Shown here: piece after piece, positions 6,323 to 63,912 of the stretch
Layout of the letters: every line of letters starts with the position of its first letter
Numbering within the stretch: the first letter of the stretch is position 1
Assembly: GCF_000585995.1 (NCBI RefSeq)
Contig: NZ_CP007410.1
Span: 3,127,430-3,191,429, forward strand
Reading direction: 5' to 3'
DNA length: 64,000 bases
Source: Pseudomonas brassicacearum
GTDB taxonomy: Bacteria; Pseudomonadota; Gammaproteobacteria; Pseudomonadales; Pseudomonadaceae
Notes under the pieces: model-generated
Seen by the model: the letters and a program-made list of their open reading frames with translations, nothing else
Database searches by the model: none
What the model was told of the DNA's origin: nothing
Program-made: the position numbers and the translations under genes

Positions 6323-6341
6323 TCCTGGCTGTATGAAGTCC

Positions 6342-6464
6342 TGTGGCGAGGGAGCTTGCTCCCGCTGGGGCGCGCAGCGGCCCTAAAAATCTGCAACAAC
6401 ACCGATAGTCAGGCGCGCGAAGGGGGCCGCTTCGCAGCCCAGCGGGAGCAAGCTCCCTCGCCAC
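6342..6464. repeat. REP pair (REPIN), GGGAGCTTGCTCCC family
   Basis: Inverted TGTGGCGAGGGAGCTTGCTC copies flank about 60 bases. It separates the pedF group from pedH, so pedH probably has its own promoter in 6465-6610. Confidence 0.9.
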
Positions 6465-6564
6465 GGGGCTGTGTGCAACGGCCTCACATGTACCAAGGAA
6501 CTAGAAAACTCAACACAGCGGGCAATTGTTGCCAGCGGCCCTGGGGCCAAGAATCTGCGACAGA

Positions 6565-6581
6565 CCGGGAAAATTTCCCGG
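6565..6581. promoter_or_regulatory. palindrome CCGGGAAAATTTCCCGG upstream of pedH
   Basis: A perfect 8-bp inverted repeat around one base, centred 38 bp before the pedH start. The inner CGGGAA-N3-TTCCCG core is the same as in the site upstream of pedE. It is a candidate operator for the lanthanide/alcohol-responsive regulators. The different distances to the two start codons would allow activation of one gene and repression of the other. Confidence 0.5.
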
Positions 6582-6610
6582 GTATAACAATAACCGCAGA
6601 GGTAGCCGTC

Positions 6611-8386
6611 ATGAGTCATCCCGCACGTCGCCAACCGTTCGCCGTGAGCCTGCTGCTCAGTGCCATGCTGCTGTCCGGTTCGGCCCTGGCCGCCGTGACC
6701 GATCAGGAAATTCTCCAGGACCCGAAGAACCCCGAGCAGATCGTGACCAATGGCCTGGGCGTCCAGGGCCAGCGCTATAGCCCGCTCGATACCCTCAACA
6801 CCGACAACGTCAAGGACCTGCGTCCGGTCTGGGCGTTTTCCTTCGGTGGCGAAAAGCAGCGCGGTCAGCAAGCCCAGCCGATGATCAAGGACGGGGTGAT
6901 GTACCTCACTGGCTCTTATTCGCGGGTGTTTGCCGTGGATGCGCGTACCGGCAAGAAACTGTGGCAGTACGATGCGCGCCTGCCCGATGACATCCGCCCT
7001 TGCTGCGACGTGATCAACCGTGGCGTAGCGTTGTACGGCGACCTGGTGTTCTTCGGCACCCTCGACGCCAAGTTGGTGGCCCTGAACAAGGACACCGGCA
7101 AAGTGGTGTGGAGCAAGAAGGTCGCCGACCACAAGGAAGGTTATTCCATCAGCGCCGCACCGCTGATCGTCAATGGCAAGCTGATCACGGGCGTGGCCGG
7201 TGGCGAATTCGGTGTGGTGGGGCAGATCAGCGCCTATGACCCGAAGAACGGCGAACTGCTGTGGACCCGCCCAACCGTGGAAGGCCATATGGGCTACGTC
7301 TACAAGGACGGCAAGGCCGTTGAAAATGGCATTTCCGGCGGCGAGGCTGGCAAGACCTGGCCGGGCGACCTCTGGAAAACCGGCGGTGCCGCCCCTTGGC
7401 TTGGCGGTTACTACGACCCGGAAACCAACCTGCTGCTGTTCGGCACCGGCAACCCGGCGCCGTGGAACTCCCACCTGCGCCCTGGCGACAACCTCTATTC
7501 CTCATCACGTCTGGCCTTGAACCCGGACGACGGCACCATCAAATGGCACTTCCAGAGCACGCCGCACGACGGCTGGGATTATGACGGCGTCAACGAGCTG
7601 ATCTCGTTCAACTACAAGGAAGGCGGCAAGGAGATCAAAGCGGCAGCGACCGCCGACCGTAACGGCTTCTTCTACGTGCTCGATCGCACCAACGGCAAGT
7701 TCATCCGTGGCTTCCCGTTTGTCGACAAAATCACCTGGGCCACAGGCCTGGACAAGGACGGCCGACCGATCTACAACGAGGCCAGCCGTCCGGGCGCGCC
7801 GGGCAGTGAAGCCAAGGGCAGCTCGGTGTTCGTCGCACCGGCGTTCCTCGGCGCGAAAAACTGGATGCCGATGGCCTACAACCAGGACACCGGGCTGTTC
7901 TACGTGCCGTCCAATGAATGGGGCATGGACATCTGGAACGAAGGCATCGCCTACAAGAAAGGCGCGGCGTTCCTCGGGGCCGGCTTCACCATCAAGCCGC
8001 TGAACGAGGATTACATCGGCGTGCTGCGGGCCATCGATCCGAAGACCGGCAAGGAAGTCTGGCGCCACAAGAACTACGCGCCACTGTGGGGTGGGGTGCT
8101 GACCACCAAGGGCAACCTGGTGTTCACCGGCACGCCTGAAGGTTTCCTGCAGGCCTTCAACGCCAAGACCGGGGAAAAAGTCTGGGAATTCCAGACCGGC
8201 TCCGGCGTGCTCGGTTCGCCTATCACCTGGGAAATGGACGGCGAGCAATACGTCTCCGTGGTCTCTGGCTGGGGCGGCGCCGTGCCGCTGTGGGGCGGCG
8301 AGGTGGCCAAGCGCGTGAAAGACTTCAACCAGGGCGGGATGCTCTGGACCTTCAAGTTGCCGAAAGCGCTGGTGGCCAAACGCTGA
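6611..8386 (+). CDS. pedH: PQQ-dependent alcohol dehydrogenase, lanthanide type (PedH-like quinoprotein)
   Basis: The protein has 591 residues with a signal peptide over 1-27 (ending ALA). Cys131-Cys132 (RPCCDV) form the PQQ ring disulfide. Glu199 and Asn281 are metal ligands and Asp323 is the catalytic base. The decisive feature is Asp325, two residues after the base (WDYDG): this extra carboxylate coordinates the rare-earth ion in XoxF and PedH enzymes and is absent from calcium enzymes. The expected reaction is periplasmic oxidation of alcohols and aldehydes when La, Ce, Pr or Nd is available. The ATG at 6611 is preceded by AGAGG. It is paralogous to the divergently placed pedE. Confidence 0.94.
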
Positions 8387-8400
8387 TATCTGCACTGAAG

Positions 8401-8527
8401 CGTGGCGAGGGAGCTTGCTCCCGCTCGGCTGCGAAGCAGTCGCCAACCCGGCGGGCCAGGTTTTTCGGCCATGAACCGAGGTAAGGGGAGCGCTTCGCAC
8501 TCCAGCGGGAGCAAGCTCCCTCGCCAC
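8401..8527. repeat. REP pair (REPIN), GGGAGCTTGCTCCC family
   Basis: Inverted GTGGCGAGGGAGCTTGCTCC copies 15 nt after the pedH stop codon. The first arm has CTCGG instead of CTGGG at its edge. Confidence 0.88.
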
Positions 8528-8589
8528 AAAGGTATCTGCGATGGGTTCAAGTTCGCGGATGCCTTGCTCTGAATCTACGACCAAATAAC

Positions 8590-8668
8590 GAGAGCCCCCC
8601 TGCCAACGACGCATTCGTCCGCCGCGCGGGGCTCTCTACCATCGGTCTATCGCCTGTCCCGCGACAGG
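8590..8668 (+). promoter_or_regulatory. structured leader upstream of pedI (two inverted repeats)
   Basis: GAGAGCCCC (8590-8598) pairs with GGGGCTCTC (8628-8636), and CCTGTC (8653-8658) pairs with GACAGG (8663-8668). Both precede the ribosome site of pedI (GCAGAGG, about 8680). Neither has a T-run, so they are not standard terminators. They could be regulator sites or an RNA leader. No known riboswitch is recognised. Confidence 0.35.
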
Positions 8669-8691
8669 CATCGACCAGGCAGAGGCCCATC

Positions 8692-10212
8692 ATGATCTAC
8701 GCACAACCCGGAACTCCAGGCGCCGTCGTTTCCTTCAAACCGCGCTATGGCAATTTCATTGGCGGCGAATTCGTCGCACCGGTCAATGGCGAGTACTTCA
8801 CCAACACGTCGCCGGTCAACGGTGAAGTCATCGCCGAATTCCCGCGCTCCGGCGCCGCTGACATCGATAAGGCCCTGGATGCCGCCCATGCCGCCGCCGA
8901 CGCCTGGGGCAAGACCTCGGTGCAGGACCGTTCCCTGGTGCTGTTGAAAATCGCCGACCGTATCGAGCAGTACCTGGAAGTCCTCGCCGTCGCTGAAACC
9001 TGGGACAACGGCAAGGCCGTGCGCGAAACCCTCAATGCCGACGTGCCGCTGTCGGCCGACCATTTCCGTTATTTCGCTGGCTGCATCCGCGCCCAAGAGG
9101 GTGGGGCTGCCGAGATCAACGAACTGACCGCGGCCTATCATTTCCACGAGCCGCTGGGCGTGGTCGGGCAGATCATCCCGTGGAACTTCCCGCTGCTGAT
9201 GGCCGCCTGGAAACTCGCCCCGGCCCTGGCCGCCGGTAACTGCATCGTGCTCAAGCCGGCGGAACAGACGCCGCTGTCGATTACTGTGTTCATCGAGCTG
9301 ATCGCTGATCTGCTGCCGGCCGGTGTGTTGAACATCGTCCATGGTTTCGGTCGCGAAGCCGGTGAAGCCCTGGCCACCAGCAAGCGCATCGCCAAGATCG
9401 CCTTCACCGGTTCCACCCCGATCGGCTCGCATATCATGAAATGCGCCGCCGAGAACATTATCCCGTCCACCGTGGAACTGGGCGGCAAGTCGCCGAACAT
9501 CTTCTTCGAAGACATCATGCAGGCTGAGCCGGCGTTCATCGAAAAAGCCGCTGAAGGCCTGGTGCTGGCGTTCTTCAACCAGGGCGAAGTCTGCACCTGT
9601 CCATCCCGCGCGCTGGTGCAGGAGTCGATCTACGTGCCGTTCATGGCCGAGGTCATGAAGAAAATCGCCAAGATCAAGCGCGGCAATCCACTGGACACCG
9701 ACACCATGGTCGGCGCCCAAGCTTCCCAGCAGCAGTACGACAAGATTCTTTCGTACCTGGAGATCGCTCGGGAAGAGGGTGCCGAACTGCTGACCGGCGG
9801 TGCGGCCGAGCACCTGGAAGGGGACTTGTCGAGCGGCTACTACATCCAGCCGACCCTGCTCAAGGGCCACAACAAGATGCGCGTGTTCCAGGAAGAAATC
9901 TTCGGCCCGGTGGTGGGCGTCACCACCTTCAAGGACGAAGCCGAAGCCTTGGCCATCGCTAACGACACCGAATTTGGCTTGGGTGCCGGCCTGTGGACCC
10001 GTGACATCAACCGCGCCTACCGCATGGGCCGGGCGATCAAGGCCGGTCGCGTGTGGACTAACTGCTACCACCTGTACCCGGCGCACGCCGCGTTCGGTGG
10101 CTACAAGAAGTCCGGTGTCGGCCGTGAAACCCACAAGATGATGCTCGATCATTACCAGCAGACCAAGAACCTGCTGGTGAGCTACGACATCAATCCGTTG
10201 GGGTTCTTCTAA
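8692..10212 (+). CDS. pedI: NAD-dependent aldehyde dehydrogenase (PedI/ExaC-like)
   Basis: The protein has 506 residues, the usual length for ExaC/AldB-type acetaldehyde dehydrogenases. It has no signal peptide, so it acts in the cytoplasm on aldehydes made by the quinoproteins. Visible motifs are [12 protein letters not shown] (cofactor binding), [17 protein letters not shown] with general base Glu262, and [11 protein letters not shown] with catalytic Cys301 followed by Cys303. The CTC pair is typical of this subfamily. GCAGAGG lies before the ATG. It stands alone between REP pairs, with an unusual hairpin-rich leader. Confidence 0.92.
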
Positions 10213-10239
10213 TCCTCGAAACATCGATTGAGTGAACAC

Positions 10240-10363
10240 TGTGGCGAGGGAGCTTGCTCCCGCTGGGCCGCGAAGCGGCCCCTCTTTGAACCCTCACATC
10301 TCTTGTGTCTGGATGATAGGGGGGCTGCTGCGCAGCCCAGCGGGAGCAAGCTCCCTCGCCACA
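10240..10363. repeat. REP pair (REPIN), GGGAGCTTGCTCCC family
   Basis: Inverted TGTGGCGAGGGAGCTTGCTC copies between pedI and pqqA. Short reading frames over it are palindrome artefacts. Confidence 0.9.
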
Positions 10364-10488
10364 GATGCTCGCTCTCCAGTAGTACCAACGCACCCCATCC
10401 ACCGCTTCGAAAGTAGCATTCGAGCCTTGGACGGGGCATGCATTAATGACCTTGCCGGAATCGCCCGGTACAAGAAGAGGAAAGACCC

Positions 10489-10560
10489 ATGTGGACTAAA
10501 CCCGCGTTTACCGACCTGCGTATTGGTTTTGAAGTGACGATGTACTTCGCCAACCGATGA
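10489..10560 (+). CDS. pqqA: PqqA, precursor peptide of pyrroloquinoline quinone (orphan copy)
   Basis: A 23-residue frame starting [11 protein letters not shown] and ending MYFANR, preceded by AAGAGGAAAG. It contains the invariant EVTMY core, in which Glu15 and Tyr19 are the residues cross-linked and turned into PQQ by the pqq enzymes. It is too short for routine gene finding. No pqqB, C, D or E gene is in the window, so it is a second or orphan precursor copy placed inside the PQQ-dehydrogenase locus. It would supply extra peptide when alcohol oxidation is induced. A strong hairpin follows directly. Confidence 0.93.
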
Positions 10561-10564
10561 GTGC

Positions 10565-10595
10565 TAGCCCGGCCTGAGGCGCTCAGGCCGGGCTA
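10565..10595 (+). terminator. hairpin after pqqA
   Basis: TAGCCCGGCCTGAG and its exact complement form a 14-bp stem around the loop GCG, starting 4 nt after the pqqA stop. There is no T-run, so it may work mainly as a 3' end stabiliser or leaky terminator for the tiny pqqA message. Confidence 0.65.
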
Positions 10596-10672
10596 CCCCA
10601 TTGGTCTGATTGCAATCACGGTAGGATGCTTTAGGCTCAGGGTATCCCAAGACAATAACAACAGGCTTACCG

Positions 10673-11851
10673 ATGAGCCACGCACCTGAAAAGATGAGCC
10701 TCAGTCCACTGCGCAAGTTCGTTTCCCCCGAAATCATGTTTGGTGCCGGCTGCCGGCACAATGTCGGCAATTACGCCAAGACGTTTGGCGCACGCAAGGT
10801 GCTGATCGTCACCGATCCCGGCGTGATCGCTGCCGGATGGGTGGCCGATGTCGAGGCCAGCCTCCAGGCCCAGGCCATCGATTACTGTCTCTACAGTGCC
10901 GTTTCGCCCAATCCCCGGGTCGAAGAAGTCATGCTCGGTGCCGAGGTGTACCGGGAGAACCATTGCGATGTCATCGTTGCGGTCGGCGGGGGCAGTCCCA
11001 TGGACTGCGGCAAGGCCATCGGCATCGTCGTCGCCCATGGTCGCAGCATCCTCGAGTTCGAGGGTGTCGACATGCTGTACATGCCCAGCCCACCGCTGAT
11101 CCTGATTCCCACCACCGCCGGCACCTCGGCCGATGTGTCGCAGTTCGTGATCATCTCCAACCAGCAAGAACGCATGAAGTTTTCCATCGTCAGCAAGGCG
11201 GCGGTACCGGACGTGTCGCTGATCGACCCGGAAACCACCCTGAGCATGGACCCGTTCCTGTCGGCCTGTACCGGCATCGACGCGCTGGTGCATGCCATCG
11301 AGGCGTTCGTGTCCACCGGTCACGGCCCGTTGACCGACCCCCATGCCCTGGAGGCGATGCGCCTGATCAACGGCAACCTGGTGCAAATGATTGCCAATCC
11401 GGCGGACGTCGCGCTGCGGGAGAAAATCATGCTCGGCAGCATGCAGGCCGGGCTGGCGTTCTCCAATGCAATCCTCGGCGCAGTGCACGCGATGTCCCAC
11501 AGCCTGGGTGGGTTCCTGGATTTGCCCCATGGTTTGTGCAACGCGGTGTTGGTGGAGCACGTGGTGGCCTTCAATTACAACTCGGCACCTGAGCGTTTCA
11601 AGGTGATTGCCGAGACGCTGGGTATCGATTGCCGAGGGCTCAATCATCGGCAGATTCGTACCCGCCTGGTGGAACACCTGATTGCCCTCAAGCACACCAT
11701 CGGTTTCCACGAAACCCTGGGCCTGCACGGGGTGAGCACCTCGGATATTCCCTTCCTGTCGCAACATGCGATGCATGACCCGTGCATCCTCACCAACCCT
11801 AGGGAGTCGAGTCAGCGGGATGTCGAGGTCGTTTATGGCGAAGCCCTCTGA
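10673..11851 (+). CDS. ercA: iron-containing alcohol dehydrogenase (ErcA-like)
   Basis: The protein has 392 residues of the group III Fe-dependent alcohol dehydrogenase family, cytoplasmic. The nucleotide-binding GGGSPMD motif is present. Metal ligands lie in TGIDALVHAIE and in GAVHAMSHSLGG...PHG. In P. aeruginosa the equivalent gene (ercA) lies next to a sensor kinase and affects ethanol-oxidation signalling rather than bulk catabolism. The same pairing is seen here, and the next gene overlaps it by 17 nt. A start seven codons downstream is possible because the ribosome site is weak for both. Confidence 0.88.
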   Translation: MSHAPEKMSLSPLRKFVSPEIMFGAGCRHNVGNYAKTFGARKVLIVTDPGVIAAGWVADVEASLQAQAIDYCLYSAVSPNPRVEEVMLGAEVYRENHCDVIVAVGGGSPMDCGKAIGIVVAHGRSILEFEGVDMLYMPSPPLILIPTTAGTSADVSQFVIISNQQERMKFSIVSKAAVPDVSLIDPETTLSMDPFLSACTGIDALVHAIEAFVSTGHGPLTDPHALEAMRLINGNLVQMIANPADVALREKIMLGSMQAGLAFSNAILGAVHAMSHSLGGFLDLPHGLCNAVLVEHVVAFNYNSAPERFKVIAETLGIDCRGLNHRQIRTRLVEHLIALKHTIGFHETLGLHGVSTSDIPFLSQHAMHDPCILTNPRESSQRDVEVVYGEAL

Positions 11852-53916: not shown

Positions 53917-54954
53917 TCACCCCAGCATCAGCAACTGCCGAATCAGGTTCGGCGTGCTACCGGTCCAGCGCTTGAACGAGCGCCGGAAGTTAGCCGTGTC
54001 GTTGAAGCTCAAATACTGCGCCACTTCTTCGTTGCTGAACCCCTTGACCTGATACAGGTACAACGCCACATGGGTGTGTACGCGGTCGACCTGTTGCTGG
54101 AAACCGGTGTGGTGCTTATGCAGTTTGCGCTTGAGGGTCGCCGGGCTCATGGCGAAGGTCTGGGCGGTTTGTTCCAGGCTTGGCGTTTGCTGGACATGGG
54201 CGCGCAGGTGATCGTAGACACAATCGACAAAGCTTGAGGCAAAGCCCAGTTGGTCGAGCTGGTTTCGCGCCTCGCTTCGCGCCACCTGAGCGGCGGTGGC
54301 AGACACGTTGGGCCAGGGCTTGGTCAGGAAGTGGCGGGGCAGGCGCATCAGGTCCAGCGGTCGGTTGAACTGCGTCTGTTCGCTCAGGTGCACCCAATAC
54401 TGCTCGACGTAACGCGGCTCACTGTGGCGAAAAGTGCACTGCCAGGGCAGGCGCTCACCGCTGAGCCAAGCACTCATCGCGACCATCGACGTCATGCTTG
54501 CCTCCAACACGAAGCGCCAATGTTCGTCGGCGCCGCAGCTGTCCAGCCAATGCACATAGGCATATTGCTCGTCCAACAATAGGCGCGGTGCAGCCAACGG
54601 GCTGAGCAAGGCCTGTTGGTCAATCAGGGTGTCCAGGGCCTGATGAAGGTTCTGCGCGTGGCGTAAGGCATGGCTGGCCGGTCCGTAGTGCCCCGGCAAC
54701 AGCCGTTGGCCGAACAGGAAACTGCTGTCGTTGGCGTCCAGCAGGCGCCGGCTGTTGTCGATCAGGCCTATGAACTGCTGCGGGCTGATGCGGCTCTGGC
54801 CGGCCAGGATATCGTCGTGGAACAACCCGGTACCGCGCAGCAGGCGATGGCTGTCGATGTCCCGCGATAACGCCAGGTCGATCAGCGCGGCAGGCTGATA
54901 GTGCCCGGGGATGAAACGACTGTCGGCTTCGTACCAGCACGTCTTGAGCGTCAT
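53917..54954 (-). CDS. AraC-family regulator (OruR/ArgR-type with arabinose-binding-like N domain)
   Basis: The protein has 345 residues. The long N-terminal domain (about 15-210) is of the AraC_binding_2/Arabinose_bd type seen in OruR and VqsM-like regulators. The C-terminal HTH pair (about 245-340) includes LEQTAQTFAMSPATLKRKL and NEEVAQYLSFNDTANFRRSFKRW. The start at 54954 lies 9 nt after the upstream GGDEF gene, so they form an operon. Confidence 0.87.
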   Translation of the reverse strand: MTLKTCWYEADSRFIPGHYQPAALIDLALSRDIDSHRLLRGTGLFHDDILAGQSRISPQQFIGLIDNSRRLLDANDSSFLFGQRLLPGHYGPASHALRHAQNLHQALDTLIDQQALLSPLAAPRLLLDEQYAYVHWLDSCGADEHWRFVLEASMTSMVAMSAWLSGERLPWQCTFRHSEPRYVEQYWVHLSEQTQFNRPLDLMRLPRHFLTKPWPNVSATAAQVARSEARNQLDQLGFASSFVDCVYDHLRAHVQQTPSLEQTAQTFAMSPATLKRKLHKHHTGFQQQVDRVHTHVALYLYQVKGFSNEEVAQYLSFNDTANFRRSFKRWTGSTPNLIRQLLMLG

Positions 54955-54963
54955 GGAACGGCC

Positions 54964-55878
54964 TCAGGCACTTTTTGCCAGCGTGGTTCGGGACTGGGCC
55001 AGCGTCAGGTTGAGGCGTTTGAGCAAGATTTCGGCGGATTCGTCGAACGCCATCACCACCGACGTACTGGCGGCCAGTCGCAACCGCTCACCGTGTTGCC
55101 GGGTTTTGTGGGCCAGGCTGCGAACCGCCACTTCCAGTTCCAGCGCCAGGCGCTGGGCCTGACTCTCGCCGGTGTCGGGCAGCAGCACCACAAAGCGATC
55201 ACCGGCCAGTCGACAGAGCAGATCCTGACGACGCAGGTTCAGCACCAACAACTGGCTGACGGCTTGGAGCACGGCGTCGCCCTCGCCATGGCCGAAACGC
55301 TGGTTGATGGCGGTGAAGTTATCCAGGTCCAATGCCAGCAATGACAAGGGCTGCTCACGCCGTTTGCTGTCTTCCAGGCTGGCGGACAGTTCCTGCTTGA
55401 AAAAGTCGGCCCCACCCAGGGGCGTGAGCTTGTCGAATAAACGGTGTTCGCGGAACAGCCGCTCGCGCTTCTCCATCTGTCCGTTGATTGCCAACTGTTC
55501 CCGGTGCCAGTGATAAATGCCAAGGGTTAGCAGAATCATGCCCACCGGCATCGGCGCGGATTCCAGCCAGTGATCCCAGGTGATGCTGTCGGGCAGGCGG
55601 ATGAATTCGTCGAGGGCGTCGATCCACCAGGAAAAGAAGATACAGCCCAATCCCAGGATCAAGTAACTGGTCACACGCCCGGCCGGGCGGCTTTTGAGCA
55701 CCAGGCCCAGCCAGACCAGCGCCAGCAGCGCCGAGCCACCTTCGCCGAGAATATCCAGCCAGACCCACTGCGTGACGGGTTTGAGCTCGCCGCAGGCCAA
55801 GTGCAGGATCAACCCGAGATTGGCCGCCAGCAGAAGCAGGGCGAGTTTTAAACGGTGCGGGCGGAGCACGGAGAACAT
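54964..55878 (-). CDS. membrane protein with degenerate GGDEF domain
   Basis: The protein has 304 residues. Three or four N-terminal membrane helices (about 9-125) form a small sensor region. The C-terminal GGDEF domain (about 145-300) keeps LALDLDNFTAINQRFGHGEGD, but the signature is AGDRF (225-229) in place of GG(D/E)EF. Loss of the first Gly and the key Glu makes diguanylate cyclase activity unlikely. It may bind GTP or c-di-GMP or act by protein contact. It is followed by an AraC gene 9 nt later, suggesting a signal-input/transcription-output pair. Confidence 0.85.
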   Translation of the reverse strand: MFSVLRPHRLKLALLLLAANLGLILHLACGELKPVTQWVWLDILGEGGSALLALVWLGLVLKSRPAGRVTSYLILGLGCIFFSWWIDALDEFIRLPDSITWDHWLESAPMPVGMILLTLGIYHWHREQLAINGQMEKRERLFREHRLFDKLTPLGGADFFKQELSASLEDSKRREQPLSLLALDLDNFTAINQRFGHGEGDAVLQAVSQLLVLNLRRQDLLCRLAGDRFVVLLPDTGESQAQRLALELEVAVRSLAHKTRQHGERLRLAASTSVVMAFDESAEILLKRLNLTLAQSRTTLAKSA

Positions 55879-56040
55879 GGCCGGAATCCTTTGCCAGAAG
55901 CGGAATGCGGCCCAGCACAGCAGATGAATGTGACAGTGCGGTGACGAGGGGCGAATGGCTGGGACAGGTCGAATCAGCTCATCGGTTGTCGGTTTTTTTT
56001 GTAGCGACCGCGCATCTATCCGACTTCATGGCATACCCAT
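55879..56040. other. intergenic region upstream of REP and TonB-receptor promoter, no gene seen
   Basis: It lies between the divergent GGDEF and TonB-receptor genes. A run of eight T around 55990 is not preceded by a stem. It probably contains the GGDEF-AraC promoter, which I could not pinpoint. Confidence 0.4.
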
Positions 56041-56161
56041 TGTGGCGAGGGGATTTATCCCCGCGGGGTTGCGAAGCGACCCTGAAATCAGGCATCGCGG
56101 TGTGGCAGGCAACATGAAGGGGGGCGCTTCGCGCCCAGCGGGGATAAATCCCCTCGCCACA
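56041..56161. repeat. REP pair, variant GGGGATTTATCCCC family
   Basis: Inverted TGTGGCGAGGGGATTTATCC copies. The frame is the same as the GGGAGCTTGCTCCC family, but the palindromic core is GGGGATTTATCCCC. It lies upstream of the TonB-receptor gene. Confidence 0.88.
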
Positions 56162-56267
56162 AGTTGACCGACTTCAGATTCTTTGGACCGCGGGAAAAGG
56201 TCATTTCAGCTCACTCTGGCCAATCAACCCGCTCTAAACAGCCTTTATAGGCCCAGTAGTCGCCCTC

Positions 56268-56301
56268 CTGTCACAGAACCGTCATCCCCCACCCCTAGCG
56301 T
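56268..56301 (+). promoter_or_regulatory. Pho box and -10 of the TonB-receptor/phytase module
   Basis: CTGTCAC-AGAA-CCGTCAT matches the PhoB box (CTGTCAT-N4-CTGTCAT) at 12 of 14 positions. Ten bases further is TAGCGT (56296-56301), a plausible -10. This is the spacing of PhoB-activated promoters, in which the box replaces the -35. It predicts induction by phosphate starvation. Confidence 0.65.
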
Positions 56302-56361
56302 GCCCTCCCAGTTGCCGGGCCATTGCCTGGCGGATGTTCGGATTCCTGGGGGAGGACCACC

Positions 56362-58884
56362 ATGCACCACCGCACAAGCACCGTCGGGCTCGTCGGTTTC
56401 ACGTTTACCGCGTTGGCGATGGCCGTTGCCAGCGAGCGACTGAGCGCCGCCGAGCAGGCGGCCACTGAGCACGTCGAGGTGGTCGGTCAGGCCGCCAGCA
56501 TCGACCAGGCCCTCAAGGAACAACGCAGCGCCGACAGCATCAAGAGCGTGGTGCATGCCGACGGCGTGGCGCAGCTGCCGGACGAAAACGTCGCCGAAGC
56601 GGTGCAACGCCTGCCGGGTGTCAGCGTCGAGCGCGACCAGGGTGAAGGCCGTTTTGTCAGTGTGCGGGGCCTGGGGCCGGACCTTAACAGCGTGACCATC
56701 AACGGCACCCTGGTGCCGGCTCCAGAAAGCGAACGTCGGGCCGTTGCCCTGGACGTGCTGCCCTCGGAGCTGGTGCAGTCGTTGTCGGTGATCAAGACCC
56801 TGACGCCAGATATGGACGCCAACTCCCTGGGCGGCACGGTGGACGTCAAAAGCCTCTCGGCCTTCGACCACATGGGACTGTTCTACACCGGCAGCAGCGA
56901 AGCCAGTTACGACAAGAACACCGGCCAGACCAGCCCCAAATTCTCGGGCGCCATCAGCGACCGCTTCAGCCTTGGCGACGGTATCGACAACTTCGGCGTG
57001 GCCGCCGCGTTGAGCTGGCAGAAGCGCGACTTCGGTTCGGATAACGTCGAAACCGGCGGTGCCTGGGATTTCGAGCAAGGCTCACGCCTCGAAGAGTTCG
57101 AACAGCGCGATTACGACATCCGTCGCGAGCGGGCCGGGGGCGGGTTGAACTTCGACTACAAGCCTGACGATTTCAGCAGCTATTACCTGCGCACGCTGTA
57201 CAGCCGCTACAAAGACAGCGAAACCCGCAACGCCGCCAGTATCGCTTTTGAAGACCCGCAAGCCGCGGGTGAGCTGGGAGACGCCGAGGGCAAACGCAAA
57301 CTCAAGCAACGTGAAGAAACCCAGGAAATCCAATCCTACGTGCTCGGCGGCGAACGCATGTTCGGGCTCTGGACACTCAGTGGCCAGGGCGGCTACAGCC
57401 AATCGAGCGAAGACAGCCCCGGCCACATCGCCGGTGCCACCTTCGAAGGCATCGACGGTTTCAACGGCGGCTTCTACGACAACGACAAACCACGGCCGAT
57501 CATCAGCCCGGGGTTCTACGACCCTGCCAACTTCAGCCTCGACAAGGTGGATTGGGAACAGCAGAAAACCACAGACACCGAGAAAAACTTGCGCCTGGAC
57601 CTGGCCCGGGACTACGACTTCAGAGGGTATGCGTCCCAAGTCAAATTCGGTGGCAAAGTCAGCCGACGCGACAAGGATAACGACCTTGACGCTTGGGTCT
57701 ACGAGGACTTTGACAGTCTGGGTTTCAGCGATGATCAGCTTAACCTCGGGCAATTCCAGAAGGGCACTATCGATTATCGACTTGGGCGATTCGGTCCTGG
57801 CATCAGCACCGATGCTATCAAGCAGTTGCTGGGCGGCCTCAATCGCGATGATTTTTTTGACGAGCAGGAGTCGCGGGTCAACGACTTCAAGATGAGCGAG
57901 GACATCAACGCCGCTTACCTGATGAACACCGTCGACATCGACGACTGGCGTTTCATTGCCGGCATGCGCTATGAGGGTACCGAGTTCGATGCCAAGGGCA
58001 CGGGCGTCACCGATGGTGTATTTACCGACACCGAGACCCGTCGCAAGTATCACCATTGGCTGCCGGGCCTGCATGCGCGCTACCAACTGGACAAGAACAC
58101 CCAGGTGCGCGCGGCGTGGACCAAGGCCGTGGTGCGCCCGACTTTCGGGCAGCTGGCGCCGGGCTTTGTCATCGACGATGACGAAGCGACCTTTGGCAAC
58201 CCGCAGCTCAAGCCGCTGGAGTCGAGCAACCTGGACCTGGGGATCGAGCATTTCATGGGGCGCGCCGGTACCGTCTCGGCTTTCGTGTTCTACAAGGACA
58301 TCAAGAACTTCGTCTACAACACTGACCTGGCGGGCACGGGCGCCTGGACCGATTTCGCCGAAGCCCACAGCTACGCCAATGGCGACAGCGCCAAGCTCTA
58401 TGGCCTGGAATTGGCCTACTCACAAAAATTCGATTGGCTGCCGGCGCCCTGGAATGGATTGCTGCTGGGCGCCAATACCACCTTCAGTCGCTCGGACGCC
58501 GAGATCGAAGGCTTTGACCAGGCCAGCGGCACCCAGCGCAAACGCAGCATTGACCTGCCGAACCAGTCGGACACGGTGGGCAACCTGATGCTGGGTTGGG
58601 AAGGCGACAAGCTGAGCCTGCGTCTGTCAGCCAACTACAAGTCGGCCTACCTCTATGAACTGGCGTCCATCAGCGACCGTGACCATGACCTGCACGTCGA
58701 CGCCCAGACCTTCGTCGACTTCAGTGCCCGCTATTCGTTGACCAAAAACCTGCAAGTCAGCCTGGAGGCGCAGAACCTCACCGACGAGCCGTATTTCGTC
58801 TACACCGGCCATCGCTCCTACAACGGCCAGTACGAAGAGTACGGCCCGACCTACAAGCTGGGCCTGACCTTCACCCATTTCTAG
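56362..58884 (+). CDS. TonB-dependent outer-membrane receptor (phytate-locus)
   Basis: The protein has 840 residues with a signal peptide over about 1-30. The plug domain has VQRLPGVSVERDQGEG, and the stretch LDVLPSELVQSL...TPDMDANSLGG is the signature of the large receptor subfamily common in Xanthomonas and Caulobacter for sugars and other nutrients. The beta-barrel ends in LGLTFTHF with terminal Phe. GGGGGAGG precedes the ATG. A Pho box lies upstream and a phytase gene downstream, so the ligand may be phytate, an inositol phosphate or a metal complex of it (inference). Confidence 0.9.
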   Translation: MHHRTSTVGLVGFTFTALAMAVASERLSAAEQAATEHVEVVGQAASIDQALKEQRSADSIKSVVHADGVAQLPDENVAEAVQRLPGVSVERDQGEGRFVSVRGLGPDLNSVTINGTLVPAPESERRAVALDVLPSELVQSLSVIKTLTPDMDANSLGGTVDVKSLSAFDHMGLFYTGSSEASYDKNTGQTSPKFSGAISDRFSLGDGIDNFGVAAALSWQKRDFGSDNVETGGAWDFEQGSRLEEFEQRDYDIRRERAGGGLNFDYKPDDFSSYYLRTLYSRYKDSETRNAASIAFEDPQAAGELGDAEGKRKLKQREETQEIQSYVLGGERMFGLWTLSGQGGYSQSSEDSPGHIAGATFEGIDGFNGGFYDNDKPRPIISPGFYDPANFSLDKVDWEQQKTTDTEKNLRLDLARDYDFRGYASQVKFGGKVSRRDKDNDLDAWVYEDFDSLGFSDDQLNLGQFQKGTIDYRLGRFGPGISTDAIKQLLGGLNRDDFFDEQESRVNDFKMSEDINAAYLMNTVDIDDWRFIAGMRYEGTEFDAKGTGVTDGVFTDTETRRKYHHWLPGLHARYQLDKNTQVRAAWTKAVVRPTFGQLAPGFVIDDDEATFGNPQLKPLESSNLDLGIEHFMGRAGTVSAFVFYKDIKNFVYNTDLAGTGAWTDFAEAHSYANGDSAKLYGLELAYSQKFDWLPAPWNGLLLGANTTFSRSDAEIEGFDQASGTQRKRSIDLPNQSDTVGNLMLGWEGDKLSLRLSANYKSAYLYELASISDRDHDLHVDAQTFVDFSARYSLTKNLQVSLEAQNLTDEPYFVYTGHRSYNGQYEEYGPTYKLGLTFTHF

Positions 58885-58902
58885 GTTCCGATGCTGATCA
58901 CC

Positions 58903-59024
58903 TGTGGCGAGGGGATTTATCCCCGCTGGGCTGCGTAGCAGCCCCAAAGACCTGACTGTGCGGTGTGTCAGACATCTTGGATGGGGCCGCTTCGCGCCCC
59001 AGCGGGGATAAATCCCCTCGCCAC
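58903..59024. repeat. REP pair, variant GGGGATTTATCCCC family
   Basis: Inverted TGTGGCGAGGGGATTTATCC copies between the TonB-receptor and phytase genes. It is the second and last copy of this variant in the window. Confidence 0.88.
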
Positions 59025-59058
59025 TAAGTGCCCGACACACTTGTTTGAACCCGGCTCA

Positions 59059-61002
59059 ATGACAAGGATTTTCCGATTGAACACGATGTTGTTTTTACCC
59101 AAGCGTTACCTGCTGGCGATGCTCGTCAGCTTGGCCACGGTCCCAGCCTTGGCGGCTGCCGCCGGCCTCAACCTGAAGTTGCAACCCTGGCCTGCGCCCC
59201 AGGACCTGTCGCTTAACGCCTTGGCCTTTGTGCCCGGCCATTCGACGACCGAGCGCCTGGCCAGTGCCCGTGAGGGTTTGTTGCTGCTCGATGCCCAAGG
59301 CCGTGAACTGGCGCGCCTGAAGGGCAGCTTCGAGGACCTCGACAGCCGGTCCCTGGGGACGAACGTTCTGGTCGCCAGCCTCGACACTACGCGTCAGCAA
59401 GCGTTGCTGGTCAGCCTGGATCCGCAGAAGCGCCAATGGGGAACGCCGCTGTATCTGCCGACACGGGACTTCCCGGTCAACGGCCTGTGCCTGTACCGCG
59501 ATGAAGCGAGCAACCTGTTTGTGTTCCTGATCGGTGAAGAGGGCAAAGGCGAGCAATGGCTGGTCGGCAATGGCGAGCGCCTGAACGACACCGCGCAACG
59601 GGTGCGCGGCCTGCCGTTGCCACCGGACGCCAAGGTCTGCCAGGTGCAGGACAGCGCCCATCAGTTGTTCGTCAACGAGCAACGGGTGGGCTGGTGGGTC
59701 TATCCGGCGTCTGCCGAAGCCGAAGCCGTTCGTGTCCCCGTGGCGATGCGCGCGCCGTTTGGCGACATCCAGCAAGCCGCTGGCGCCATGGCGGTACTGC
59801 CGGGAGGCATGCTGGGCCTGGACCCGGCCGCGGCCCAACTGCATCTGTATCAGCAAAAGGGCGAGGGTTGGAGCGCCAAGGTCAGTTTGCCGTTGCCGGG
59901 CCTGAAAGAGCCAGAGAACCTGGCGGTACGCCCGACGAAAACCGGTATCGAAGTGCTGCTGCGAGACGATGACAATGGGCGCCTGTACCAAGGCGAAATC
60001 AACTGGCAACCCACGCCAATGCCTTTGTCGCCGGCACTGCCCACGGTGTCCGCCATTGTTCAGAGTGAACCGGTGGCCCGTCAGGGTGATGCGGCCGATG
60101 ACCCGGCGATATGGGTGCATCCGACCACGCCTGGGTCGAGCCGGGTCCTGGGTACCAACAAGAAGCAAGGCCTGCTGGCCTATGACCTGCACGGCAAGTT
60201 GCTGCAGGAACTCCCGGTCGGGCGCCTGAATAACGTCGATGTGCGGGCGAACTTCAAGCTGGGCACGCAGACCGTCGATCTGGCGGTGGCCAGTAACCGT
60301 GATCGCAACAGCCTCAGCCTGTTCAGCATTGACCGAACCCACGGCGAATTGCGCGAGGCCGGCGAGATTCCTACGTCGCTCGAGGAAATCTATGGCGTCT
60401 GTCTGTTCCAGCCCAACGAAGGTGAACTGTATGCCTTCGCCAACGGTAAGGACGGTCGCTATTTGCAGTACCGCCTCAGTGCAGCGGACGGTGTGGCGAA
60501 AGGTGAACTGGTGCGTCAGTTCAGCGTCGACAGCCAACCCGAAGGTTGCGTCGTCGATGACCTGCGCCAACGCTTGTTTCTCGGTGAAGAAGATGTGGGT
60601 GTCTGGGCAGTGGACGCCCGGGCCGACCAGCCGACGACATTGAACAGCGTGATCAAGGTTGGCTCGCAGTTGCACGCCGACGTCGAGGGGATCGCCCTGT
60701 ACCGCAGCGCGGACCGTGACTACCTGGTGGTGTCCAGCCAGGGCAACGACAGTTACCTGGTGCTCGATGCCGAACCACCCTATGCCATACGTGGGGCTTT
60801 TCGAGTGGGCTTGAACGCCGCCGCAGGCATTGACGGCGCCTCGGAAACCGATGGCCTGGAAGTCACCTCGGTGAATCTGGGCGGGCCTTGGAACCAAGGG
60901 ATGCTGGTGGTCCAGGACGGGCGCAAGCGCATGCCCGAGCAAACCCAGAATTTCAAGTTCGTGCCCTGGGCCGAGGTGGCAAAAGCGCTACGCCTGCCTT
61001 GA
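59059..61002 (+). CDS. two-domain beta-propeller phytase
   Basis: The protein has 647 residues with a signal peptide ending near ALAAA. The C-terminal half (about 345-640) has the active beta-propeller phytase motifs: DDPAIWVHP, NKKQGLLAYDL, NNVDVR, ASNRDRN, SQPEGCVVDD and DVEGIALY, which supply calcium- and phosphate-binding residues. The N-terminal half (about 45-335) is a diverged propeller lacking most of these, as in known dual-domain phytases, where it aids the active half. It releases phosphate from Ca-phytate in the periplasm or outside. A TTG at 59077 has AAGGA at 8 nt and may be the true start; the ATG at 59059 has a poor ribosome site. Confidence 0.9.
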   Translation: MTRIFRLNTMLFLPKRYLLAMLVSLATVPALAAAAGLNLKLQPWPAPQDLSLNALAFVPGHSTTERLASAREGLLLLDAQGRELARLKGSFEDLDSRSLGTNVLVASLDTTRQQALLVSLDPQKRQWGTPLYLPTRDFPVNGLCLYRDEASNLFVFLIGEEGKGEQWLVGNGERLNDTAQRVRGLPLPPDAKVCQVQDSAHQLFVNEQRVGWWVYPASAEAEAVRVPVAMRAPFGDIQQAAGAMAVLPGGMLGLDPAAAQLHLYQQKGEGWSAKVSLPLPGLKEPENLAVRPTKTGIEVLLRDDDNGRLYQGEINWQPTPMPLSPALPTVSAIVQSEPVARQGDAADDPAIWVHPTTPGSSRVLGTNKKQGLLAYDLHGKLLQELPVGRLNNVDVRANFKLGTQTVDLAVASNRDRNSLSLFSIDRTHGELREAGEIPTSLEEIYGVCLFQPNEGELYAFANGKDGRYLQYRLSAADGVAKGELVRQFSVDSQPEGCVVDDLRQRLFLGEEDVGVWAVDARADQPTTLNSVIKVGSQLHADVEGIALYRSADRDYLVVSSQGNDSYLVLDAEPPYAIRGAFRVGLNAAAGIDGASETDGLEVTSVNLGGPWNQGMLVVQDGRKRMPEQTQNFKFVPWAEVAKALRLP

Positions 61003-61066
61003 GCAACGTTGTCATCAACCGGTCACGAACATCTCATCGAATAGCAGCCAGACAGGAATTTCAACC

Positions 61067-61774
61067 ATGCACGCTACTTTGGAACACATGACAATTTGGG
61101 GCCTGATCAGCGACGCGAGTCTGTTGGTCAAGGCGGTCATGCTCACGCTGTTGCTGGCCTCGCTGCTGAGCTGGTACCTGATCATCCAGCGCAGCGCCGT
61201 GTTGCAACGCGACGAGCGCCAGCTCAAGGGCTTCATGCAACGCTTGCGCAGCACCCAGGACTTGCTGCCCCTGTATCGGGAGACCGCACAGGGGCGGGAG
61301 GAAGGCGGCGGCATAACGCCGATTTTCCAGGCGGGTTTGTTGGCCTTCACTCAACTGAACCAACCTTCGAGCGCTCCGCAAATTGTGCTTGAAGGCGTCG
61401 AGCGCTCGCTGCAGGTGGCGATCAGTGAACAGGAAGTGCAGTTGGAAAAAGGCTTGCAGTTTCTTGCCACTGTCGGTTCGGTCAGCCCTTACATCGGCCT
61501 GTTCGGTACCGTCTGGGGAATCATGAACGCTTTTATCGGCCTATCCCAAGTACAACAGGCCAGCCTTTCCACCGTTGCGCCGGGCATCGCCGAAGCGTTG
61601 ATCGCCACGGCCATCGGCCTGTTCGCGGCGATCCCAGCGGTGATTGCCTATAACCGCTTGGCCGCCCGCGGCCAGACCTTGTTGACCCGCTACTACGCCT
61701 TCGGCAACGAATTGCAGGCACGTCTGCACCACAAGCTGCACGGTGCCTCGGTGAACCTGGCCGCGGCCGCTTGA
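61067..61774 (+). CDS. TolQ/ExbB-family proton-channel protein of the phytase module
   Basis: The protein has 235 residues with three predicted inner-membrane helices: near 20-40, and a pair at about 130-190 (SVSPYIGLFGTVWGIMNAFIGL and GIAEALIATAIGLFAAIPAVIAYN). The N-terminal HMTIWGLISDASLLVKAVML resembles TolQ more than ExbB. It would form a proton channel with the next gene product to energise the adjacent TonB-like protein. It is 64 nt after the phytase gene. Confidence 0.88.
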   Translation: MHATLEHMTIWGLISDASLLVKAVMLTLLLASLLSWYLIIQRSAVLQRDERQLKGFMQRLRSTQDLLPLYRETAQGREEGGGITPIFQAGLLAFTQLNQPSSAPQIVLEGVERSLQVAISEQEVQLEKGLQFLATVGSVSPYIGLFGTVWGIMNAFIGLSQVQQASLSTVAPGIAEALIATAIGLFAAIPAVIAYNRLAARGQTLLTRYYAFGNELQARLHHKLHGASVNLAAAA

Positions 61775-61787
61775 GAGGAGAGGGCAG

Positions 61788-62234
61788 ATGTTAGTCAAGC
61801 CGCAACGCAAGCACGGGCCCAAGGCCGAAATGAACGTAGTGCCCTACATCGACGTGATGTTGGTGTTGTTGGTGATATTCATGGTCACCGCACCGATGCT
61901 GACCCAGGGCGTGAAGGTCGAACTGCCCAAGGTCGCCAGTGAGGCACTGCCCAATGACAAACGTCAGCAGATCCTGACCCTGTCGGTGAAGGCCGAGGGT
62001 GGTTATTACTGGAACCTTGGCGGCGAATTGGATACCCGCAACCAGACCGACAGCGCCGTGGACCTGGACCAGATGAGCACCAAGGTGGCGCAAGTCGTTG
62101 CCGAGCGCAGCGACACCCAGGTGTATATCCGTGCCGACGATCACGCCGACTACGGCCGAGTCGTCGCGGCCATGGCTGCTTTGCAGCGGGGCGGGGTGAG
62201 CAACTTGGGCTTGGTGACCGAGGCACCGCAATGA
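61788..62234 (+). CDS. TolR/ExbD-family protein of the phytase module
   Basis: The protein has 148 residues with one membrane helix (about 19-38) containing Asp22 (VPYIDVMLVLLV), the proton-carrying residue. The periplasmic part begins MLTQGVKVELPKVASEALP, closely like TolR. AGGAGAGGG precedes the ATG 13 nt after the TolQ-like stop. Its end overlaps the TonB start by 4 nt. Confidence 0.9.
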   Translation: MLVKPQRKHGPKAEMNVVPYIDVMLVLLVIFMVTAPMLTQGVKVELPKVASEALPNDKRQQILTLSVKAEGGYYWNLGGELDTRNQTDSAVDLDQMSTKVAQVVAERSDTQVYIRADDHADYGRVVAAMAALQRGGVSNLGLVTEAPQ

Positions 62235-63043
62235 CGGCGATGATCATGCATACCCCCTCTCTGCACTTTCCCGCGTTGACACGCCATGGCGTTTGGAGAA
62301 ACAGCCTCGCGGCAGGGCTCGCCGTGGCGTTGCACGTGGGGGCGGTAGGGTTGCTGGTGTTGGGCTGGACCGCGGAGAAACCCGCTGCCCAGGCGCCTCG
62401 GGTGCTGCATACGCAACTGGTGATGTTGCCTGCGTCACCGGTGCCCGTAACTCCTGCACCTGCACCAGCCCCTGTTGCAGCGCCACCGGTGGAGTCCGCC
62501 CCGGTGCCGGTTGAAATGCCACGCCCTGCAGCAGCCAAACCCGTCGTGGACCCGCGTGTCCAGGCGCAAAGACTGGAACAGGCGACCCTGGCCCGCAAAC
62601 GGGTCGAGGATCAGAAACGCGAGCAACAAGCCCAGCAGCAACGTGAACGCCAGGAGAGCGAGCGACGCCAGCACGAAGCTGAGCAAAAGGCCGCCGAACG
62701 ACAACGTCAGGCACAACAGGTGCAAGCGCTCGCACAACAGCGCGCCGAGCAGGCCCGCCTGGCCGCCGCTGACAGCCGCAGCTATCAACCGCTGAGCAAA
62801 CAAGCCCCCGACTATCCGCAACGGGCGCTGGACAAGGGACTGGAAGGCGACTGCACCGTCGAATACAGCGTGACGCCGGACGGACGGATCGACAGCCCCA
62901 AAGTGCTCGACGGTTGCCACCCGCTGTTCATCCGACCATCCCTGGCCGCCGCCCAGACCTTCCGCTACCAACCGCGGATTATCGAAGGCAAAGCCGTGAC
63001 AGTGCCGGCGGTGCGTAACACCTTTCATTACCGGATCAAATAA
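62231..63043 (+). CDS. TonB-like energy transducer with TolA-like coiled coil
   Basis: The protein has 270 residues. A membrane anchor (about 22-44) is followed by a Pro/Ala/Val-rich segment (about 60-100) and a long charged Gln/Arg/Glu-rich coiled coil (about 113-175), reminiscent of TolA. The C-terminal TonB domain is about 185-270 (APDYPQRALDKGLEGDCTVEYSV...). Two cysteines in that domain (GDC and DGC) may form a disulfide. It is coupled to the TolR-like gene by a 4-nt overlap. It probably serves the TonB receptor of the same locus. Confidence 0.88.
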   Translation: MTAMIMHTPSLHFPALTRHGVWRNSLAAGLAVALHVGAVGLLVLGWTAEKPAAQAPRVLHTQLVMLPASPVPVTPAPAPAPVAAPPVESAPVPVEMPRPAAAKPVVDPRVQAQRLEQATLARKRVEDQKREQQAQQQRERQESERRQHEAEQKAAERQRQAQQVQALAQQRAEQARLAAADSRSYQPLSKQAPDYPQRALDKGLEGDCTVEYSVTPDGRIDSPKVLDGCHPLFIRPSLAAAQTFRYQPRIIEGKAVTVPAVRNTFHYRIK

Positions 63044-63147
63044 AACGCAAAATCCCGACAACTCAAGCAAGTCCCCCAAAGAACGCGCGTGCGTGATCGA
63101 CGACAGTGGAGGCGTCGAAAACAAACCCGTTTTTTTGGAGAACTGAC

Positions 63148-63912
63148 ATGACTGACTTCACCCCCACCCCCAACGAAATCGCCGGCAAGGTGGTACTGGT
63201 CACCGGTGCGGCCAGCGGTATCGGCCGGGCAATCGCAGAGTTGTTCCATGCCCGCGGCGCCAAGGTCATTGCCGAGGACATCAACCCAAAAGTGAGCGCG
63301 CTGGAGCAACCTGGCCTGGTGCCGTTCGTGGCGGACATCACTGCGGACGGCAGCGCTGAAGCCGCCGTTGCGCTGGCGCAAGAGCGCTTTGGCCGGCTTG
63401 ATGTGCTGGTGAACAATGCCGGGCGAATCCTCTACAAGCCCTTCGTGGAAATGACCCGCGAAGATTGGAACTGGCAGATGGAAACCAACGTGACCGGCGC
63501 CTTCCTGCATTCACGCGAAGCCATGAAAGCGATGCTGAAACAGCAGTCGGGCGCGATCGTGAACATCGCCTCCTATGCGTCCTATTTTGCTTTCCCAGGC
63601 ATCGCGGCCTACACCGCCTCCAAGGGGGCCCTGGCCCAGTTGACCCGGACCCAGGCCCTGGAGGCTATCGAGCACGGGATCCGGGTCAATGCCATCGGCG
63701 TCGGTGATGTGGTCACTCATCTGCTTGATCACTTCATGGAAGATGGCCAGGGGTTTCTGGCCGAGCACGGCAAGTCCGCGCCCATTGGCCGGGCGGCGTC
63801 CCCCACGGAAATTGCCGAAATCGTCGCGTTCCTGGCCTCGGAACGCGCCAGTTTCATGGTGGGCTCGGTGGTCATGGCTGATGGAGGGATGAGTGTTGCG
63901 GTAGGCGGTTGA
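63148..63912 (+). CDS. SDR-family oxidoreductase
   Basis: The protein has 254 residues. NAD(P)-binding TGAASGIGRAIAE, the DINP after strand 2 (Asp suggests NAD), VNNAG, and catalytic Ser with YTASK. GGAG precedes the ATG at 63148. It follows the TonB-like gene by 104 nt on the same strand, but nothing ties it functionally to phytate use. The substrate is unknown. Confidence 0.85.
   Translation: MTDFTPTPNEIAGKVVLVTGAASGIGRAIAELFHARGAKVIAEDINPKVSALEQPGLVPFVADITADGSAEAAVALAQERFGRLDVLVNNAGRILYKPFVEMTREDWNWQMETNVTGAFLHSREAMKAMLKQQSGAIVNIASYASYFAFPGIAAYTASKGALAQLTRTQALEAIEHGIRVNAIGVGDVVTHLLDHFMEDGQGFLAEHGKSAPIGRAASPTEIAEIVAFLASERASFMVGSVVMADGGMSVAVGG

Follow-up and report, generated by a model that had tools for sequence, protein, structure and literature searches.

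The window analyzed here, a 64,000-nucleotide stretch of the Pseudomonas brassicacearum genome (G000:C1:3127430-3191429, in a 6.65 Mb single-contig genome), contains what we consider, with somewhat better than even confidence, to be a divergent locus for the use of phytate that is under coincidence control, in which PhoB would act together with a helically phased activator of the AraC type. On the + strand the order is a Pho box, a -10 element, a TonB-dependent receptor, a beta-propeller phytase and a TolQ/TolR/TonB-type trio (the energizer), and beside the receptor side lies a divergent - strand half made up of a GGDEF gene and an AraC-family gene. An earlier note on this DNA had described a Pho-controlled phytate-use unit with its own energizer. 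The Pho box with a correctly spaced -10 that it placed upstream of the receptor is confirmed (TAGCGT lies 10 nt past the box and is mostly TAGCKT in relatives), as is the location of all five genes on one strand, borne out by family matches; conservation also supports control by Pho, joint action of the genes and an energizer dedicated to them. What does not survive is the single unit under one Pho box, for the locus is divergent and has three Pho boxes and a second, phased operator; the note had overlooked the GGDEF-araC half, the two further Pho boxes and both copies of the second operator. The features are as follows.

53917..54954, - strand: AraC-family regulator with Arabinose_bd (PF12625) and HTH_18 domains; candidate binder of both operators
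54964..55878, - strand: GGDEF protein with a degenerate active site (A-site), AGDRF, and an intact inhibitory site (I-site), RxxD; predicted to be co-transcribed with araC
55914..55919, - strand: -10-like TGTGCT of the GGDEF-araC promoter, a conserved block 10 nt from Pho box 2; putative position
55930..55947, - strand: Pho box 2, TCGTCACCGCACTGTCAC, for GGDEF-araC; 2 mismatches, identified by conservation
55967..55981, + strand: operator copy 1, GGTCGAATCAGCTCA, from motif search
56040..56160, no strand: repetitive extragenic palindrome (REP)-like inverted repeat between the operators, seen by eye within an unconserved stretch of the alignment
56199..56213, + strand: operator copy 2, GGTCATTTCAGCTCA, 69 bp start-to-start upstream of Pho box 1
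56268..56285, + strand: Pho box 1, CTGTCACAGAACCGTCAT, from motif search and conservation
56296..56301, + strand: -10-like TAGCGT, 10 nt downstream of Pho box 1; mostly TAGCKT among relatives
56362..58884, + strand: TonB-dependent receptor, 840 aa, with plug and barrel; no N-terminal signalling domain found
58903..59030, no strand: REP-like inverted repeat in the receptor/phytase gap, seen by eye
59059..61002, + strand: beta-propeller phytase (PF02333, residues 330-644); signal peptide judged by eye
61009..61026, + strand: Pho box 3, TTGTCATCAACCGGTCAC, upstream of the energizer genes, from motif search and conservation
61037..61042, + strand: -10-like TCGAAT, 10 nt past Pho box 3, from motif search
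61067..61774, + strand: TolQ-type proton channel subunit, from family profiles
61788..62234, + strand: TolR-type subunit, from family profiles
62231..63043, + strand: TonB-type transducer with a TonB_C domain, from family profiles

The locus was compared with its relatives, the best 80 loci from one genome scan with the phytase as query, all of which are from Pseudomonas and among which distant members are under-represented. Pho box 1 is one of four zero-mismatch matches to CTGTCAYNNNNCYGTCAY in the genome, a pattern whose Y at position 13 was picked after the site had been seen; against the strict CTGTCAYNNNNCTGTCAY it scores 13/14. Upstream DNA sufficed for scoring in 78 relatives, and there the top site within 250 bp reaches 13/14 in 63 cases, 12/14 in 12 and 11/14 in three; single-base shuffles attain 12 in 0.4% of cases and 11 in 3%. 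An alignment of 74 intergenic regions (the window and 73 relatives) gives 1.82 bits per column at this box compared with 0.61 for 55900-56250. Across the same 74 regions Pho box 2 scores at least 12/14 in 55, 11 in 17 and 10 in two, and Pho box 3, in the gap between the phytase and tolQ, scores at least 12/14 in 60 of 81 loci (the window and all 80 relatives) versus 0.1% of shuffles, with TCGAATAG (one mismatch or fewer) behind it in 59 of the 81.

The arrangement is that of the PHO regulon, with a Pho box in the -35 place and a -10 about 10 nt further, and the genome encodes PhoB. The same layout (box, 10 nt, TAGGGT) precedes a PstC-like gene, which scores 192.9 bits with TIGR02138 against a cut-off of 196.45. 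Exact or one-mismatch box matches in the genome include the sites upstream of this gene and of PcrP, the Pho membership of which we do not take as given; two other exact matches (at 883113 and 4358933) have no known Pho gene downstream by a crude choice of open reading frame, and among 12 inspected matches, six of them covered by family searches, a clear neighbor was found only for the PstC-like gene and PcrP. Sequence and conservation together suggest that PhoB binds all three boxes.

The second operator, GGTCNNNTCAGCTCA, came to light as two direct copies that form extra conserved blocks in the alignment of 74 regions. The genome contains two exact copies, both in this locus; at one mismatch or fewer there are 24 genome-wide versus 26 in the control, and none near tolQ. 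With up to two mismatches at least one copy is present in all 74 regions and two copies in the same orientation in 71, and a slightly relaxed motif finds two copies in 73. Within a genus set of 298 genomes, the window's own included, at least two exact copies occur in 62 of the 89 genomes with the phytase compared with 12 of the 209 others; the count covers the whole genome, and some of these copies are therefore not in the locus.

The positions of the operators relative to the Pho boxes fall into discrete classes. Measuring start to start, with d2 running from operator 2 to Pho box 1 and d1 from Pho box 2 to operator 1, we find across the 74 loci that d2 is 69 in 64, 68 in four and 58 in six, and that d1 is 26 in 36, 25 in nine, 36 in 14 and 37 in 14, one locus being unscored and another (L078) relying on a weak box. 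For both distances the classes are 11 bp apart, which is one helical turn, and no intermediate values are seen. On a tree of the 74 rows, built from four proteins by a quick search with Shimodaira-Hasegawa-like approximate likelihood ratio (SH-aLRT) support only, d2 switches class at least five times and d1 at least eight (seven without L078); the distance between the operators changes at least 53 times on the same tree, by many sizes. As a rough yardstick, of 12 sister-pair differences of at least 3 bp in the stretch that separates the operators, two are of 10-12 bp. The 54-bp spacer upstream of Pho box 1 has the same length in 64 loci, while its sequence averages 47% pairwise identity (minimum 22%); the operator and the box reach 91% and 95%, but both were selected by motif and are therefore similar partly by construction. 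Such a pattern would be expected of a regulator that has to contact PhoB or RNA polymerase from a fixed face of the helix. In several relatives the otherwise unconserved spacer (56214-56267 in the window) also contains a short AAACCC...GGTTT-like stretch, perhaps a second half-site.

The most likely binder of the operators is the AraC-family protein, named from its co-inheritance and position. It has a C-terminal HTH_18 domain (PF12833) and an N-terminal ligand domain (PF12625), as expected of the AraC/XylS family. The divergent AraC and GGDEF genes are present in 73 of the 80 relatives, and in the remaining seven the contigs end too early. In the genus set the phytase is found in 89 genomes and an AraC ortholog (E≤1e-80) also in 89; both are present in 87, the AraC ortholog only in G038 and G076, the phytase only in G240 and G272, and neither in 207. 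Three of these four exceptions were checked and in each (G038, G076 and G272) the missing partner is lost to a contig end; the fourth, G240, is 77% complete. On the other side of the control region the phytase, TolQ, TolR and TonB matches follow in the same order in all 80 relatives, and the receptor is matched in 79; L057 begins within the locus and L081 is truncated. Named receptor matches at 96-97% identity come from P. brassicacearum and other or unclassified Pseudomonas. In one relative (L022, 6428-8936) the match to the receptor is broken up into three pieces that overlap, and the gene is either broken or mis-sequenced.

We propose that phosphorylated PhoB, formed in phosphate hunger, would bind the three Pho boxes. 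At the two divergent promoters a further activator would be required or would assist it; the likeliest candidate is the AraC-family protein of the locus, which would occupy the operator that precedes each Pho box, either on the same face of the helix or closer by exactly one turn. As a guess, the second signal might be inositol or an inositol phosphate, or else a state passed on by the degenerate GGDEF protein. The receptor would bring an inositol phosphate, possibly complexed with a metal, through the outer membrane, and the phytase would strip phosphate from it, probably in the periplasm. The energizer promoter is predicted to need PhoB alone; it has its own Pho box and no second operator, and the supply of the motor would therefore follow phosphate hunger alone.

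The GGDEF protein has AGDRF in place of GG(D/E)EF in all 73 Pseudomonas orthologs, so that the motif of an active cyclase is missing, and retains the I-site RxxD in all 19 orthologs aligned. It is probably not a working cyclase and possibly a cyclic di-GMP (c-di-GMP) receptor. Its N-terminal half is hydrophobic and it is probably membrane-bound; a structural model of low confidence (predicted local distance difference test, pLDDT, 62.4) places helices in the N-terminal part and was used for the helix pattern only. Degenerate GGDEF proteins such as PelD bind c-di-GMP, and the protein described here resembles PelD-type proteins in its broken A-site and kept I-site RxxD, but differs from them in its hydrophobic N-terminal half, with several helices in the low-confidence model, and in its predicted operon with araC. 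A more speculative extension, which we regard as rather unlikely, is that the GGDEF and AraC proteins form a new kind of sensor pair, in which the pseudo-cyclase would read c-di-GMP through its I-site, or inositol phosphate through its membrane part, and control the activity of its AraC partner; PhoB and AraC, held a whole number of helical turns apart, would then form a gate for phosphate hunger plus phytate, with DNA looping between the operators and a geometry kept across several gammaproteobacterial families.

The phytase family is found in 11 of 369 genomes of the class, the window's own included, and our distant set comprises six loci with AraC-GGDEF and eight other phytase loci. The six, in which divergent AraC and GGDEF genes lie beside receptor and phytase, are from Acinetobacter pittii (L124), Catenovulum (L125), Pseudoalteromonas (L126) and three further gammaproteobacteria (L135, L136 and L140). 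All six carry the operator, matching the relaxed motif without mismatch in L125, L126 and L136 and with one mismatch in L124, L135 and L140, and their GGDEF motifs, read by eye as AGDRF, AGDRY, SGQRF or ASDCF, are all degenerate. In contrast, seven of the other loci (L127, L132-L134 and L137-L139) have no AraC-GGDEF match, and none of the seven has an operator upstream of receptor or phytase, although single one-mismatch matches occur at other positions in four of them; L141 starts at the phytase and was left out of this count. In four of the six the d2 spacing recurs: it is 69 in L124, L126 and L135 and 68 in L136. In the A. pittii locus, which is a plasmid copy, receptor (6047-8680) and phytase (8761-10741) are each split into two frames and are either broken or mis-sequenced, and the phytase match of L140 is fragmented and contains a stop. 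Catenovulum (L125, 7850-8833) and Pseudoalteromonas (L126, 7782-8777) have a phosphatase gene between receptor and phytase, annotated as a tartrate-resistant acid phosphatase type 5 family protein or a metallophosphoesterase; the window has none.

Several observations weigh against coincidence control by PhoB and an AraC-type activator. Fewer than two exact operators are found in 27 of the 89 phytase genomes, and two or more in the 12 genomes mentioned above that lack the phytase, one of which, G038, has its locus truncated where the contig stops. Judged in the single genome, boxes 2 and 3 do not rise above chance (205 matches at two mismatches or fewer versus 215 in the control) and it is conservation that carries them. 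In L072-L080 box 2 is a weak match, at 10-11 of 14, and so is box 3 in some loci, with 9 of 14 in L069 and 10 of 14 in L061 and L065. Because a REP-like repeat separates the receptor from the phytase, a single transcript is not assured. Among the distant loci the operator used for the d2 of L126 scores 10 of 12 and is one of two equal second-rank matches, and the boxes behind the d2 values of L124 (11/14) and L135 (10/14, one of two equal) are weak; L140 has no operator-box pair and Catenovulum has operators but no Pho box. Nor is the place of box 2 kept outside the genus, since the best - strand site falls beyond operator 1 in two loci, L126 and L136, and in L135 its distance is 29 bp. Because the box 2 layout is lost and some sites are weak outside Pseudomonas, the reach of the proposal beyond the genus is trimmed; its core within the genus is unaffected. 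Finally, a study of Pseudomonas reported no evidence of PhoBR control of the SBW25, DSM4166 and BIRD-1 phytases and suggested that these respond solely to phytate (PMC5082522).

The phytase matches PF02333 with 273 bits against a cut-off of 21, aligns to the solved phytases 3amr and 1poo, and contains DAADDPAIW at 344 and NNVDVR at 391, which fit DAxDDPAxW and NNxDxR, the active-site motifs of beta-propeller phytases. It had been called dual-domain in the earlier note; its length agrees with this, but the family match covers only the C-terminal half of the window's protein. A possible reading, to which we give less credence than to periplasmic hydrolysis, is that the enzyme is extracellular and the receptor imports lower inositol phosphates or another organophosphate. 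Such products are to be expected, since beta-propeller phytases leave lower inositol phosphates, and the apparent signal peptide would permit onward secretion; no secretion gene is found among the conserved genes of the locus, and the data do not separate the two sites of hydrolysis.

The paired operators could also mean that PhoB alone activates and that the GGTCNNNTCAGCTCA copies are operators of an AraC-type repressor, looping between which silences both promoters until a ligand arrives. We regard this as rather unlikely. The two direct copies do flank the shared region, and operator-operator distances of up to 160 bp cluster near the rungs of a helical ladder (for a period of 10.5 bp, Rayleigh R is 0.66 and p ~0.001, with 16 distinct values uncorrected for kinship). 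This ladder was spotted after the fact, and its test covered nine periods and three distance limits. Two of the distant loci, at 88 and 98 bp, sit on this ladder (~10.5-11 bp), whereas Catenovulum, at 111 bp, is slightly off it, and the ladder is suggestive only. However, the distances reach 646 bp and the clustering weakens once longer ones are counted (R is 0.38 for those of up to 260 bp), and the tightest phasing is that of each operator to its own Pho box, the arrangement expected of an activator bound upstream of a promoter. The REP-like repeats at 56040-56160 and 58903-59030 are alike in sequence, and insertions of this sort may be why the distance from one operator to the other varies.

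The receptor has plug (PF07715) and barrel (PF00593) domains and scores 631 bits with TIGR01782 against a cut-off of 310. An AlphaFold2 model from 25 aligned orthologs has a mean pLDDT of 31.6; we draw no argument from a ligand pocket, and the barrel is taken from the domain match only. The company the gene keeps suggests an inositol phosphate as ligand. It is improbable, in our judgment, that the receptor serves instead to import iron or another metal as a phytate complex, with release of phosphate secondary. Phytate does chelate iron, and among proteins of solved structure the receptor is best matched by receptors for colicin, heme and ferric enterobactin, but no Fur-like site was found, the best candidate scoring 9 of 19 and being equalled by every one of 300 shuffles, and Pho boxes are found instead.

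The energizer genes together encode MotA_ExbB, ExbD and TonB_C proteins, as expected of a TonB-type energizer, and pass the cut-offs of TIGR02796 (tolQ), TIGR02801 (tolR) and TIGR01352 (TonB); the stricter cut-offs of PRK10801, PRK11024 and PRK10819 and those for exbB and ExbD are not reached. Elsewhere in the genome TolQ-type matches are 58% identical at C1:5265072, adjoining a TonB_C-like place at 5263562, and 39% identical at 6447538, preceding a TonB_C place at 6449160; the first pair is probably tolQ and tolA and the second exbB and tonB. In the set examined, matches to the trio come from Pseudomonas and Acinetobacter only, and weakly from L141. Beyond these two genera, nine gammaproteobacterial loci have a receptor-like gene close to the phytase (L125, L126 and L134-L140), and in none of them do the window's TolQ, TolR and TonB find a match (E 1e-5); the energizer therefore looks like a lineage add-on. 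Although its lack of a match there would suit a chance adjacency of receptor, phytase and energizer without joint function, we consider this highly improbable, given a gene order that is the same in all 80 Pseudomonas relatives as far as the contigs reach, Pho boxes upstream of both receptor and energizer, and near-perfect co-occurrence with araC. The short-chain dehydrogenase at 63106-63912 is excluded from the locus, as it was not found at this position in the 80 relatives. A sigma-70 scan returned 0 promoters and a terminator scan 10 candidates versus 8.0 in shuffles, and neither was used.

The published reading of how Pseudomonas switches on the use of phytate, the main phosphorus store of plants, places its phytases outside the PHO regulon. 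The strains in that study belong to the same genus, bear phytases and grow on phytate, which in some soils is a large share of organic phosphorus (PMC5082522). That account presents the exclusion of the phytases from the PHO regulon as unexpected, whereas the Pho boxes described here predict that a phytase of this locus belongs to it, given a second signal. The conflict applies only if SBW25, DSM4166 and BIRD-1 carry this locus, and a two-signal promoter, if true, would reconcile growth on phytate with the lack of induction by phosphate hunger alone.

The pairing of a receptor with a phytase is already known. In Flavobacterium the phytase and transporter pair Fjoh_1367/1368 is induced by low phosphate (PMC8115612), in Citromicrobium a transporter adjoins the phytase gene (PMC3400609), and phytate has been proposed as the substrate of such pairs (PMC8115612, PMC3400609). 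They share with our locus a receptor beside a PF02333 phytase, but the available portions of these accounts mention no AraC/GGDEF half, phased second operator or TolQ/TolR/TonB trio. In the literature searched by title and start of abstract, mostly without subscription papers, we found no description of the AraC/GGDEF/operator arrangement. The surprise is the control region and not the genes listed by the earlier note, and the locus offers its receptor, regulator and dedicated energizer as candidates for the import of inositol phosphates.

The nearest known case we met of an energizer under PhoB and a second regulator is PUMA3 of Pseudomonas aeruginosa, with vreAIR and exbB2-exbD2-tonB4 (PMC4971064, PMC7035377). 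PUMA3, like the model proposed here, combines PhoB control of a TonB-type energizer with promoters at which PhoB has to act alongside another regulator. In PUMA3 that regulator is the extracytoplasmic function (ECF) sigma factor VreI, accompanied by the anti-sigma factor VreR and a barrel-less receptor, and the accessible parts of these papers mention no phytase. The locus described here has instead an AraC-family gene, no sigma factor among its conserved genes, and a full receptor without a signalling domain; the receptor is plug and barrel only and its conserved neighbors are AraC and GGDEF, unlike PUMA3-type signalling. Activators of the AraC/XylS family act from sites phased upstream of the promoter, and AraC itself loops DNA at araBAD. 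The locus resembles these cases in having a regulator site helically phased to the core promoter and paired operators across a divergent region, and differs from them in that the core element is a Pho box and the partnership a putative one between PhoB and an AraC-family protein.

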